Positions 3,746 through 7,886 of a DNA stretch of 64,000 nt are shown in pieces (within the stretch, counting starts at the first letter, position 1; the number at the start of each line of letters is the position of its first letter). Position numbers and translations under genes: made by a program. The stretch lies in contig NZ_CP099490.1 of NCBI RefSeq assembly GCF_023923205.1, positions 3,348,001-3,412,000 of the forward strand. Reading direction: 5' to 3'. Below the pieces are notes generated by a model that saw nothing but the letters and a program-made list of their open reading frames with translations, searched no databases and was not told the DNA's origin. The DNA is from Ornithinimicrobium cryptoxanthini (GTDB taxonomy: Bacteria > Actinomycetota > Actinomycetes > Actinomycetales > Dermatophilaceae).

Positions 3746-5347
3746 TCAGGGCCGCGAGACGGCGTCGGCCGCGCCGCCGTGGCTGCCCAACCGCACTCCG
3801 TCGACGTCGACCGCACCACGCTCCCGCAGGGGGGTATGCCGTTCGGGCGGGGAGGTGGGCACCTCACCTCCGCTGAACTCCAGCTCGAGGACGTCCTTGC
3901 CGAGCTGCTCAGCGACCGGCAGCTCGATCGGGTAGTCGCCCGAGAAGCAGGCCGTGCACAACTGGTCGCGTGGCTGCAGGGTCGCCGCCACCATGCCCTC
4001 GTGGCTGATGTAGCCCAGGCTGTCGGCCCCGATCGACTGGCGGATGTCCTCCACGCCCAGCCCCGTGGCGATCAGCTCGGCCCGGGTGGCGAAGTCGATG
4101 CCATAGAAGCACGGCCAGCGCACCGGCGGCGAGGAGATGCGCACGTGCACCTCGGCGGCGCCGGCCTCGCGCAGCATCCGCACCAGCGCGCGCTGGGTGT
4201 TGCCCCGCACGATCGAGTCGTCGACCACGATCAGCCGCTTGCCGCGGATCACCTCACGCAGCGGGTTGAGCTTGAGCCGGATGCCGAGCTGGCGGATCGT
4301 CTGGCTCGGGGCGATGAAGGTGCGTCCGACGTAGGCGTTCTTGACCAGGCCGTTGCCGTAGGGGATGCCCGACGCCTCGGCGTAGCCGATCGCGGCCGGG
4401 GTCCCCGACTCCGGCGTCGGCATCACCATGTCGGCGTCGACCGGGTGCTCGCGCGCCAGCGTGCGCCCCATCTCGACGCGGGACTCATAGACACCGCGAC
4501 CGTTCAGCGTGGTGTCGGGGCGGGCGAGATAGACATACTCAAAGACGCAGCCCTTGCGGTCGGTCTCGGCGAAACGCTGGCTGCGCAGACCGTTCTGGTC
4601 GATCGCGATGAGCTCCCCCGGCTCGACCTCGCGCACGAACGAGGCACCCACGATGTCCAGGCCGGATGTCTCGGACGAGACCACCCAGCCTCGCTCGAGG
4701 CGACCCAGGACCAGGGGACGGACCCCCTGGGGGTCGCGCGCGGCATACAACGTCTGCTCGTCGCAGAAGACGAGGGAGAACGCTCCCCTCAGCGTGGGCA
4801 GCACCTCCATCGCAGCGGCCTCCAGCGACAGGTCCGGGTCGGCGGTGAGCAGTCCGGTGACCAGGGCGGTGTCGGTGGTGTTGCCGCGGCGCACCTCGCC
4901 GGGAGCGTTGCGCAGGTCACCGCCGTGTATCTCGACGAGCCGGTCGCGCAGCTGCGAGGTGTTGACCAGGTTGCCGTTGTGCGCCAGGGCCACGGTCTGG
5001 TCCTCGGTGCCACCGAGGGTGGGCTGGGCGTTCTCCCAGGAGTTGCGCCCGGTGGTGGAGTAGCGGCAGTGACCGACCGCCAGGTGACCGCGCAGCGAGG
5101 CCAGGCTCGACTCGTCGAAGACCTGGGAGACCAAGCCGACGTCCTTGTAGACCAGCAGCGAGCGGCCGTCGCTGGTGGCGATGCCGGCCGCCTCCTGGCC
5201 ACGGTGCTGCAGCGCATAGAGGCCGTAGTAGGTGAGCTTGGCCACCTCTTCACCGGGTGCCCAGACGCCGAAGACGCCACATTCGTCCTGCGGGGCCTTC
5301 TCGTCGGGCATCAGGTCGTGAGAGAGCCGTCCGTCTGCGCGTGCCAC
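3746..5347 (-). CDS. purF: Amidophosphoribosyltransferase
   Basis: This enzyme catalyses the first committed step of purine synthesis: glutamine plus PRPP gives phosphoribosylamine. The 533-residue protein has an Ntn glutaminase domain whose nucleophile is Cys in DECGVFGVW, the sequence LYALQHRGQEAAGIA, a phosphoribosyltransferase domain with the PRPP loop RLIVVDDSIVRGNTQRA, and cysteines in RWPCFYG and LCTACFSGDYP that fit the Fe-S-bearing class. The GTG at 5347 was chosen because MARADGRLSHDL matches the conserved actinobacterial N-terminus; the open frame continues 75 codons upstream through repeat DNA. It is probably the first gene of a purF-purM unit. Confidence 0.96.
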   Translation of the reverse strand: MARADGRLSHDLMPDEKAPQDECGVFGVWAPGEEVAKLTYYGLYALQHRGQEAAGIATSDGRSLLVYKDVGLVSQVFDESSLASLRGHLAVGHCRYSTTGRNSWENAQPTLGGTEDQTVALAHNGNLVNTSQLRDRLVEIHGGDLRNAPGEVRRGNTTDTALVTGLLTADPDLSLEAAAMEVLPTLRGAFSLVFCDEQTLYAARDPQGVRPLVLGRLERGWVVSSETSGLDIVGASFVREVEPGELIAIDQNGLRSQRFAETDRKGCVFEYVYLARPDTTLNGRGVYESRVEMGRTLAREHPVDADMVMPTPESGTPAAIGYAEASGIPYGNGLVKNAYVGRTFIAPSQTIRQLGIRLKLNPLREVIRGKRLIVVDDSIVRGNTQRALVRMLREAGAAEVHVRISSPPVRWPCFYGIDFATRAELIATGLGVEDIRQSIGADSLGYISHEGMVAATLQPRDQLCTACFSGDYPIELPVAEQLGKDVLELEFSGGEVPTSPPERHTPLRERGAVDVDGVRLGSHGGAADAVSRP

Positions 5348-5400
5348 TGGCCTATCGTCGCACAGCCGCCCGACACTGCTCGCTGCGCGCCGGCGCGAGG

Positions 5401-5522
5401 GAATCTGCGTCGCTGTGGGGAAATCTGCGTCGGTGTGAGCGAGTCCCGCGATCGGTGCGAGCGGATCCGCGTCGGTGTGACGGCTCCGCGCTCGCACCGA
5501 CGGCAGACTGCTCGCACCGACG
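5401..5522. repeat. Repeat cluster upstream of purF (GTCGGTGTGA / CGCACCGACG family)
   Basis: The stretch between purF and the helicase gene (5348-5690) carries no gene. It contains direct copies of tctgcgtcg and gcgtcggtgtga (at about 5427 and 5470) and two inverted copies, ctcgcaccgacg, at about 5491 and 5511. Direct and inverted copies could fold into alternative hairpins in the purF leader. Origin and role are unknown. Confidence 0.6.
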
Positions 5523-5607
5523 TAGCGCAGGATCGTCGACGGGCTCCCCCTGCCCCCATTGACCTGTCCCATGGCCTGCCTGCCAAGGCCATTTTATCGC
5601 GCGGGAG

Positions 5608-5626
5608 GGGGCTTGCGGCAAGGCCC
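5608..5626 (+). promoter_or_regulatory. Rifamycin-associated element (RAE) upstream of helR
   Basis: The 19 bases GGGGCTTGCGGCAAGGCCC form an imperfect inverted repeat, extended to 22 bases by flanking G and C (5607-5628). This is the RAE consensus as I remember it from actinobacterial rifamycin-resistance genes. A possible promoter overlaps it: TTGCGG at 5614-5619, 18 bases, then GACAAT at 5638-5643. The helicase start is about 65-75 bases downstream. Induction by rifamycins is therefore predicted, not shown. Confidence 0.75.
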
Positions 5627-5690
5627 CCGTCAGGACCGACAATCGACGGATTACGCGGGAGGGGACAAGCTTTTGGAACGGAGCCAGGAC

Positions 5691-7886
5691 GTGGACGCGA
5701 TGACCCGAGCTGCCCAGATCTTCGAGCTGCCCGAGCGGCTGGCGACCAAGGACGACTCTGCGCTGATCGGCGCCGACCAGGAGCACCTGGCCGCCGTCGG
5801 GCAAGCGCTTGAGGAGACCATCGACGAGCTGTCGGCTCGCCTGGACGACACACGCCGGCGCCCGGCGGGCGGAGGGCAGGACGCGCTCGAGCGCGACCAG
5901 GAGGTCCACCGCCTGACTGCGCGGCTGCGGACGCTGCGCCGCTTCGGCCTGGACCTGTGCCTGGGGCGGATGGTCCTCGACGAGGGCGCCGGCGGTGCCG
6001 CCGGAGACCGGACCGTGTATGTCGGAAGGCTGGGGCTGACGGACAGCACCGGTCGGCGGCTGCTCGTGGACTGGCGCTCCCCGGCTGCGGAGCCGTTCTT
6101 CGGCGCGACGCACGCCAACCCCATGGGGCTGGCCAGTCGTCGCCGCTATCGCTGGACCCGGGAGCGCATCACCGACTACTGGGACGAGGTGTTTACCCCC
6201 GACGGGCTCCAGGGGCACGCCGCGCTCGACGACCAGTCGGCGTTCATCGCCAGCCTCGGGAGCAACCGGTCGCCGCGGATGCGCGACGTGCTCGGCACGA
6301 TCCAGTCCGACCAGGACGCCATCATCCGTGCCGGATCCCGCGGTGCCCTCGTCGTCGACGGTGGGCCCGGCACGGGCAAGACGGTCGTAGCCCTGCACCG
6401 GTCGGCATACCTGCTGTATGCCGATCCGCGCCTGGGTCATCACCGCGGCGGTGTGCTCTTCGTCGGACCGCACCAGCCCTATCTCGCCTATGTCGCGGAC
6501 GTGCTGCCCAGCCTCGGCGAGGAGGGCGTGCAGACCTGCACCCTGCGCGACCTGGTGCCCGAGGGAGCCGACGCCGCCCCCGAGCTGGACCCGCAGGTGG
6601 CTGCGCTGAAGTCGAGCGCCCAGATGGTGGACGCGATCGAGACGGGCATCCGGTTCTCTGAGGAGCCGCCAGGCCGCGGGATGACGGTGTCGAACGACTG
6701 GGCAGAGATCCCGGTGACCGCCTCGGACTGGAGCGAGGCGTTCGACGCCGCGCCGCCGGGAGTCCCGCACAACGAGGCCCGCGAGAGCGTCCTGGACGCG
6801 CTCCTCGACATCCTGGTCGACAAGGTCGACGCTGCCACCACGGAGGAGGACGAGCAGGTGCAGCCGGAGGCTCTGCGGCGCTCTCTGCGGGCGGACGAGG
6901 ACCTGACCTCGGCCCTCAACGCGGCGTGGCCCATGCTCGACGCGGGTGACGTCGTCGGGGACCTGTGGACGGTGCCGGCCTATCTGCGTCTGTGCGCGCC
7001 CTGGCTGACGCCGGAGGAGGTCAGGGCGTTGCAGCGGCGCGACGCCTACGCCTGGACGGAGTCGGATCTGCCGCTGCTCGACGCCGCCCGACACCGGCTC
7101 GGCGACGCGGGCCTGGCACGCGACCGGCACCGCAGGGAGGCCCAGCTGGCGGCGCAGCGTGAGGAGATGGATCGCGTGGTCGAGCACCTGGTCGCCGCCG
7201 ACGACTCCGAGATGCAGGTGATGTCGATGCTGCGCGTGGAGGACCTGCAGGGTGCGCTGGTCGACGAGGCTGGCGTGTCCACGAAGGACCCGGACCGGCT
7301 GGCCGGCCCGTTTGCACACGTTGTCGTCGACGAGGCCCAGGAGCTGACCGACGCCGAGTGGCAGATGCTGCGGCTGAGGTGCCCCTCGCGCAGCTTCACC
7401 GTCGTCGGGGACCGCGCGCAGGCCCGGCACGGCTTCACCGAGTCCTGGCAGGAGCGACTGGAACGGGTCGGGCTCGAGCGCATCACTGTCTCGACGCTGA
7501 GCATCAACTACCGCACGCCTGAGGAGGTGATGACCGAAGCCGAGCCGGTGATCCGTGCGGCCCTGCCGGACGCCAACGTGCCGGTCTCGGTGCGCAGCAC
7601 CGGCATCCCGGTCAGCTATGGCGTGGTGTCCGACCTGGGCCAGGTAGTCGGCGACTGGCTCGCCGCCCACGAGGAAGGCGTCGCGTGCGTCATCGGTGAC
7701 CCCACCTTCAGCGCCACCGCACGGGTGCAGTCACTCACCCCGCAGCTGGCCAAGGGGTTGGAGTTCGACCTCGTGGTGCTGGTCGACCGGGGCGGGTTCG
7801 GGGCCGGAATCGAGGGCGCGGTCGACCGCTATGTGAGCATGACGCGCGCGACCCAGCAGCTCGTCATACTCGGGGATCATGGCTAG
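5691..7886 (+). CDS. helR: HelR-type RNA polymerase recycling/rescue ATPase
   Basis: An SF1 (UvrD/HelD-like) ATPase of about 731 residues. HelD proteins bind RNA polymerase and release it from DNA; the HelR branch can displace rifamycins. An N-terminal coiled region (LPERLATKDDSALIGADQEH to RLRTLRRFGLDLCLGRMV) enters the polymerase channels in HelD proteins. Walker A GGPGTGKT lies at about 224-231, Walker B VVVDEAQELTD near 545, VVGDRAQ follows, and SLTPQLAKGLEFDLVVL is near the C-terminus. GTG 5691 has GGAG 7 bases upstream; ATG 5700 is an alternative. It diverges from purF. The HelR rather than generic HelD call rests on the RAE. Confidence 0.85.
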   Translation: MDAMTRAAQIFELPERLATKDDSALIGADQEHLAAVGQALEETIDELSARLDDTRRRPAGGGQDALERDQEVHRLTARLRTLRRFGLDLCLGRMVLDEGAGGAAGDRTVYVGRLGLTDSTGRRLLVDWRSPAAEPFFGATHANPMGLASRRRYRWTRERITDYWDEVFTPDGLQGHAALDDQSAFIASLGSNRSPRMRDVLGTIQSDQDAIIRAGSRGALVVDGGPGTGKTVVALHRSAYLLYADPRLGHHRGGVLFVGPHQPYLAYVADVLPSLGEEGVQTCTLRDLVPEGADAAPELDPQVAALKSSAQMVDAIETGIRFSEEPPGRGMTVSNDWAEIPVTASDWSEAFDAAPPGVPHNEARESVLDALLDILVDKVDAATTEEDEQVQPEALRRSLRADEDLTSALNAAWPMLDAGDVVGDLWTVPAYLRLCAPWLTPEEVRALQRRDAYAWTESDLPLLDAARHRLGDAGLARDRHRREAQLAAQREEMDRVVEHLVAADDSEMQVMSMLRVEDLQGALVDEAGVSTKDPDRLAGPFAHVVVDEAQELTDAEWQMLRLRCPSRSFTVVGDRAQARHGFTESWQERLERVGLERITVSTLSINYRTPEEVMTEAEPVIRAALPDANVPVSVRSTGIPVSYGVVSDLGQVVGDWLAAHEEGVACVIGDPTFSATARVQSLTPQLAKGLEFDLVVLVDRGGFGAGIEGAVDRYVSMTRATQQLVILGDHG

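Follow-up and report, generated by a model that had tools for sequence, protein, structure and literature searches.

The rifamycin-associated element (RAE) in front of helR in the stretch of Ornithinimicrobium cryptoxanthini DNA analysed here (64,000 nucleotides, hereafter the window) lies between two predicted promoters set back to back, an arrangement found at more than 200 related sites in our overall sample. We propose, with a probability of roughly 45%, that the RAE would serve as a -35 core common to two divergent promoters, each excluding the other: a reverse one (R), a decoy that drug-bound polymerase would jam, and a forward one (F) that the jam would license. The window's gene is itself a typical representative of the RAE/HelR kind already published; what is new here is the divergent two-promoter anatomy and a branch of the element in Lysobacteraceae.

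The palindrome and the genes beside it

3746..5311, minus strand: purF, divergent neighbour (TIGR01134; start taken as the ATG before the family match)
5608..5626, no strand assigned: RAE, 19-bp palindrome, exact (exact match, window shuffles, genome scan)
5691..7886, plus strand: helR, RNA polymerase recycling motor ATPase HelR (NF041254; UvrD-like domains; best solved-structure match M. smegmatis HelD)

The initial annotation had recognised an exact RAE at 5608-5626, and this is confirmed: the positions carry the 19-mer GGGGCTTGCGGCAAGGCCC, the sole exact copy in the 3.77 Mb of genome scanned and far above chance, shuffles of the window giving a mean of 0.11 matches at three mismatches or fewer. 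Three other sites of the genome, each with three mismatches, are without the full flanking signature described below, and none has a match to the five resistance families within 1.5 kb on either side. We equate the 19-mer with the published RAE because of the gene association found here, because reviews, in the passages available, describe a 19-bp palindrome upstream of rifamycin-resistance genes, and because TGGGGCTTGCGGCAAGGCC is contained in a table of guide RNAs published for the M. smegmatis arr promoter. The distance to a HelD/HelR-like ATPase, earlier given as about 65-75 bases, measures 64 bases to a GTG start at 5691, which has GGAG 7 bases before it (5680-5683), or 73 to an ATG at 5700.

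The downstream gene does encode a HelR-type helicase, as had been claimed. Its product matches NF041254 (NCBIfam motor_HelR) over nearly its whole length with 1224.7 bits against a cut-off of 750, whereas the sister families remain under their own cut-offs (HelR_2, 412.5 bits; M. smegmatis-type HelD, 356.7). It carries DWRSP at residue 127 (the DWR motif of the N-terminal domain) and the Walker A sequence GGPGTGKT at 224; near the aligned place of the acidic Glu-Asp tip of the primary-channel loop, where the alignment to M. smegmatis HelD has a gap, it has DDSE, and positions 506-507 vary among 91 aligned sequences. The protein likely shields RNA polymerase from rifamycins, and helR is predicted to be rifamycin-inducible. 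A 27-residue stretch of the organism's own RpoB is what we take to be the unmutated rifampicin region, and a genome-wide look found no Arr gene.

The association with resistance genes extends well beyond the window. Among 186 genomes of its family, 53 have a HelR over the cut-off, and three fragments bring the loci to 56. The best RAE match within 400 bases upstream has no mismatch at 11 of these, one at 27, two at 16, three at 1 and four at 1, that is, two or fewer at 54 of 56, and a control scan inside the same genes never did better than five. The link of the RAE to rifamycin-resistance genes in relatives, one of the points on which the initial annotation could have failed, is supported. 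In two family genomes (G159 and G169) helR is split in two matches and the RAE is still recognisable upstream. Across GTDB species the exact 19-mer occurs at at least 118 loci; among the matches listed, the downstream proteins of 104 of the 118 fall into five clusters (47, 25, 17, 8 and 7 loci), which are HelR, Rox, Rgt, Arr and Rph, and the remaining loci comprise six without a usable reading frame and eight with single proteins. HelR is named through the window, and Rox and Arr through members over the curated cut-off (L034 and L083); Rgt is named through a member (L010), and Rph through a Lysobacteraceae relative of the cluster (L295), that are both cut by the locus end and below the cut-off.

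On its other side the RAE unit is about 270 bases from purF, at which R points. In tblastn searches of some 1-2 kb of upstream DNA, the window is alone among the 56 family loci in having purF there; since the other 55 have none in the DNA covered, R as a conserved purF promoter was rejected. At 5390-5522, within what is predicted to be the leader of purF and on the RAE-facing side of that gene, lies a cluster of units of about 20 nt in both orientations, which includes a 29-nt inverted repeat (5452-5480/5492-5520).

Two predicted promoters sharing one palindrome

5583..5584, minus strand: predicted R start, GG (GG present in 151 of 167 loci)
5591..5598, minus strand: predicted R -10 region, GATAAAAT (GATAAA at spacer 17, TAAAAT at spacer 19)
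5616..5621, minus strand: predicted R -35, TTGCCG, overlapping the F -35 by 3 bp (sequence; fixed geometry)
5613..5618, plus strand: predicted F -35, TTGCGG (sequence; fixed geometry in relatives)
5638..5643, plus strand: predicted F -10, GACAAT, at a spacer of 19 (first base not T, which holds for every one of the 167 loci scored)
5650, plus strand: predicted F start, approximate (placed from the -10 position)

When the flanks of the exact-RAE loci were aligned (80 of 118 after de-duplication, among the matches listed), two further conserved blocks appeared at fixed places on either side of the palindrome. The downstream block, the predicted F -10, lies 19 bases past TTGCGG and fills +30 to +35 with the hexamer xAnnnT, in most cases CAGAAT or CACAAT; CACAAT also occupies the F -10 place in the M. 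smegmatis arr promoter of the published guide-RNA table. In the upstream block, positions -17, -13 and -12 are nearly invariant; read on the reverse strand they spell TAnnnT, pointing away from the gene, so that R uses the other arm of the palindrome as its -35. We scored 167 loci, namely 111 listed 19-mer matches and 56 chosen by their HelR protein, 7 of 174 having been left out for flanks that were too short. R (TAnnnT exactly at -12) is present at 164 of them, F (xAnnnT at +30) at 158 and both at 156, counts that no other position approaches, and R is found at all 56 loci chosen by HelR protein. Eight of the nine F misses are off by one base; the ninth locus (L115) has neither F nor R, and no resistance gene adjoins it.

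The boxes TTGCGG and GACAAT had already been read as a promoter overlapping the RAE. The predicted forward promoter and the overlap stand, as TTGCGG-19-GACAAT, with a spacer of 19 rather than 18, and they agree with a review, in the passage available, according to which the palindrome overlaps the -35 of the proximal promoter in mycobacteria. What this reading had missed is that the second arm of the palindrome supplies the -35 for a conserved promoter-like element on the reverse strand, a finding that changes the likely working of the switch. The window matches the composite pattern (RAE plus both hexamers) with 0 mismatches; a strict sigma-70 scan found no promoter in this stretch of the window.

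The first position of F is C at 141 loci, G at 15, A at 11 and T at none of the 167; by eye, two actinobacterial loci outside this set (L252 and L279) do have T there, and one actinobacterial composite locus (L236) has an R without the T. Read as TATAnG at spacer 17, R matches TATAAT at a mean of 3.9 of 6 positions; at spacer 19 its mean is 3.4, below the 3.7 of F. R is therefore the more canonical of the two only at spacer 17 and through the T at position 1. The outer GGG/CCC arms of the palindrome are conserved beyond the -35 hexamers and look like a dimeric protein site. R is kept at 47 of 48 loci with a co-directional upstream neighbour and at 41 of 43 with a divergent one (crude gene calls, by which 91 of 126 loci could be assigned), and beside co-directional neighbours it therefore serves no divergent gene.

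Two forward readings of the upstream side were rejected. As a forward -10 (hexamer -18 to -13), the upstream element gives TAnnnT at 14 of 167 loci, and the near-invariant A at -12 fits the reverse reading only. A conserved upstream forward promoter, P1, sought as TTGnnn-N16..19-TAnnnT between -150 and -20, was absent from all the loci scanned (0 of 123 actinobacterial, 0 of 33 Lysobacteraceae). Two Mycobacteroides loci (L092 and L112) show, by eye, TATGAAT where others have a hairpin, and this is perhaps the published forward P1, with a start nearly coinciding with that of R. An extra outer inverted repeat around the RAE unit was seen by eye at six HelR loci of the window's genus (L184, L187, L191, L192, L193 and L200), with CCCCCTGCC or CCCCTTGCC upstream and GCAGGTC followed by AGGGGG or alike downstream.

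Beyond the R start, many loci could form a hairpin. Stems scoring 8 or more occur on the R side of 86 of 167 loci and on the F side of 11; 71 of the 86 begin exactly at the predicted R start, and 35% of R-side stems outscore all of 20 shuffles. The share of T is raised between -42 and -59, at 0.27-0.31 compared with 0.15-0.18 at more distant positions, and a strong stem followed by a T-rich tail is seen at 55 of 167 loci and at none of the 8 actinobacterial Arr loci. The arms covary within loci (z 11.6 by permutation over 126 de-duplicated loci, 9.5 without the GG, against -0.5 for the forward-side control). Base pairing in the RNA between a hairpin arm and the RAE arm was considered and set aside, as the hairpin arms differ from locus to locus and the RAE does not. 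Since the hairpin sequence varies by clade and its place is constant, it is improbable that the RNA as such is the relevant product; R is predicted often to yield just a tiny dead-end RNA. In the window, no stable hairpin follows the R start (z 0.27).

A signature that travels with resistance genes

To judge the predictive value of the full signature we read all 24 RAE-like sites of the family (two mismatches or fewer) that lie away from an over-cut-off HelR. The 13 that bear it adjoin Rox (9), Arr (2), Rgt (1) and a partial HelR at the end of a contig (1), whereas none of the 11 without it matches any of the five families; in this family sample the flanking signature separates real sites from chance ones. 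At two mismatches or fewer, the composite pattern occurs in 193 of 394 genomes of the class, and a reversed control pattern gave 0 among the matches listed. In this and the other composite searches (phylum, Lysobacteraceae, Pseudomonadota) the hexamers are part of the pattern, so their presence is not independent evidence; the identity of the adjoining genes and the hairpins are. Of 30 composite loci from the class, including the window and two family loci, 29 were read (L240 being the other) and all of these adjoin one of the five genes, HelR in the case of L243. Forty further composite loci have a resistance gene downstream in 36 cases (at L276 and L285 the match comes only at 775 and 1402 bases), on the other side in 2 and none in 2. 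In these last two (L288 and L290) the composite RAE stands directly upstream of an ABC transporter gene, which at L288 (RAE at about 2848) is DrrA-like with 325.7 bits against a cut-off of 312.45 and is accompanied by a DrrB-like permease below its cut-off. Such loci may possibly encode an RAE-controlled rifamycin exporter, beyond the five known gene kinds. At one mismatch or fewer, the composite was found in 41 genomes of a phylum-wide sample of 396, where sites were counted only.

The element also occurs in another phylum. One exact-RAE locus, among the matches listed, comes from Vulcaniibacterium, a genus that we take to belong to the Lysobacteraceae (Gammaproteobacteria), and 48 of 198 genomes of its family carry the composite, with 0 in the controls. 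All 51 Lysobacteraceae sites listed (L294-L344; strand set according to where the resistance gene lies) precede a resistance gene whose match starts within 500 bases: Arr at 36, Rox-like at 13, Rph at 1 and Rgt-like at 1. Of the representatives behind these names, Arr (L297) exceeds its curated cut-off and the Rox-like (L309), Rgt-like (L343) and Rph (L295) ones are below theirs; L309 and L295 are cut by the locus end, and L309 scores best with a general monooxygenase model. Across Pseudomonadota the composite was found in 10 of 398 genomes, and all ten sites adjoin a resistance gene.

At 39 of the 51 Lysobacteraceae sites TAnnnT occupies -12. Ten of the 12 without it belong to Rox or Rph genes and for the most part have, by eye, TAAGAT three bases off. 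On the F side xAnnnT at +30 is missing in 11 of 51, and TAnnnT serves as F in 9 of 51; one near-identical group (L335-L338 and L344) has T at position 1 (TAGACT), contrary to the actinobacterial rule. A strong hairpin with a T tract lies at or near the R start in 37 of 51 sites, including 35 of the 36 Arr loci, and on the F side in 0 of 51. From their sequence, the reverse hairpins at these 35 arr loci appear to be textbook terminators.

How the switch might work

In the working order that we propose, F would be a weak forward promoter driving helR, and R, the more canonical reverse promoter, would likely act as the drug sensor. R would fire often and unproductively, and F would thereby be kept off. 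Under sub-inhibitory amounts of rifamycin an occasional RNA polymerase carrying the drug would jam at R, and the jam would license F, so that HelR would be made; the licensing, unproven, is the least certain step. HelR would then strip rifamycin from the polymerase, as published for its relatives. Calculation narrows the choice of mechanism. With one polymerase pool and a drug that only arrests, pure exclusion between the promoters never raised F in a steady-state scan of 200,000 parameter sets, and promoter competition by itself was rejected as the means of induction; either F can still be used with an arrested polymerase sitting on R, or an additional factor takes part. With jam-licensing and one chosen parameter set, the model gave about 19-fold induction of F at 1% drug-bound polymerase; a review, in the passage available, reports a 25-fold rise for M. 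abscessus helD.

Two known systems resemble parts of this scheme. In the B. subtilis helD/pps alarm, a weak sense promoter and a stronger opposite one also precede a rifampicin-protection gene and the polymerase itself is the sensor, the stronger antisense promoter being jammed by rare drug-bound polymerase (PMC12802891). The asymmetry is shared as well, R having T at position 1 and F being without it. However, the B. subtilis promoters converge, with 39 bp between their starts (PMC12802891), whereas the RAE pair is predicted to diverge from overlapping -35s, so that no convergent pair of the B. subtilis type is formed by R and F. At the M. smegmatis rpoB-rpoC promoters I and II, as far as the source was available, rifampicin inhibits one promoter and raises the output of the other; these promoters, however, run in the same direction, the reporter effect is 1.6-fold, and the transcribed sequence between them is needed (PMC6181997). 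The divergent-promoter switch is favoured by the fixed two-sided geometry, the covarying hairpins, the retention of R where it has no divergent gene and the recurrence in Lysobacteraceae, all of which would be consistent with it. Against it would count, by analogy, the 17-bp deletion that made the B. subtilis promoters clash and abolished induction (PMC12802891), together with the outer arms of the palindrome and, in the window, the missing hairpin and an R that faces purF.

The main rival is that the RAE is the operator of a rifamycin-responsive transcription factor that controls both R and F, which we regard as possible, on the doubtful side. Such a factor would bind just this sort of site, a strict palindrome of 19 bp whose outer arms are conserved; competition alone gives no induction in our calculation, and a review and a 2026 paper favour a regulator in the passages available. 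Those same passages name none, though, and the spacing to both -10s is fixed; R is kept, often with a hairpin, where no divergent gene is there to be controlled, and the RAE unit marks resistance genes in another phylum, which would call for a shared or co-transferred regulator. We consider it unlikely that the RAE does no more than provide the -35 region of a single downstream promoter, with R and its hairpin insulating the gene against antisense transcription or read-through. F does fit P2, a published promoter with a -35 that overlaps the RAE in the source passages available, and hairpins are absent from many loci; yet R is better conserved than the hairpin it would serve (164 against 86 of 167) and is promoter-like, more than a hairpin, and the full palindrome would be left unexplained.

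Convergent interference as at B. subtilis helD, in which a forward P1 further upstream would collide with R, seems more improbable still: P1 is described in M. smegmatis, in the passages available, and the principle has been shown (PMC12802891), yet the upstream promoter pattern was found at none of the 123 actinobacterial and 33 Lysobacteraceae loci. That the 19-mer is a chance match in front of a HelR with no link to rifamycins is scarcely credible, given the shuffle mean of 0.11, the 54 of 56 family loci, the 104 of 118 exact loci (among the matches listed) and the 193 of 394 class genomes.

RAE-controlled HelR systems are known from Streptomyces venezuelae and Mycobacteroides abscessus and, as far as the reviews were available, place a HelR/HelD motor ATPase behind a 19-bp palindrome as in the window; the reverse arm, the hairpin and the two-sided geometry of the present loci are not part of those review descriptions. 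We found no description of the divergent anatomy or of the Lysobacteraceae branch in the titles, abstract openings and review passages covered. A January 2026 paper, in the passage available, still calls the way in which the RAE switches rifamycin-resistance genes unresolved.

The anatomy described here offers a concrete, testable design for that switch, and it constrains the mechanism, as something beyond simple exclusion between the promoters is needed. It also provides a sharper signature for recognising real RAE sites, as judged in the family sample, and extends the RAE beyond Actinomycetota. Tentatively, and at less than even odds, the RAE may be a sensor that needs no dedicated factor: a symmetric promoter pair sharing one -35 palindrome, in which a drug-stalled polymerase on the decoy would be the signal for the opposite promoter, and which would serve as one cassette for at least five unrelated resistance genes in two phyla, and probably for ABC exporters.
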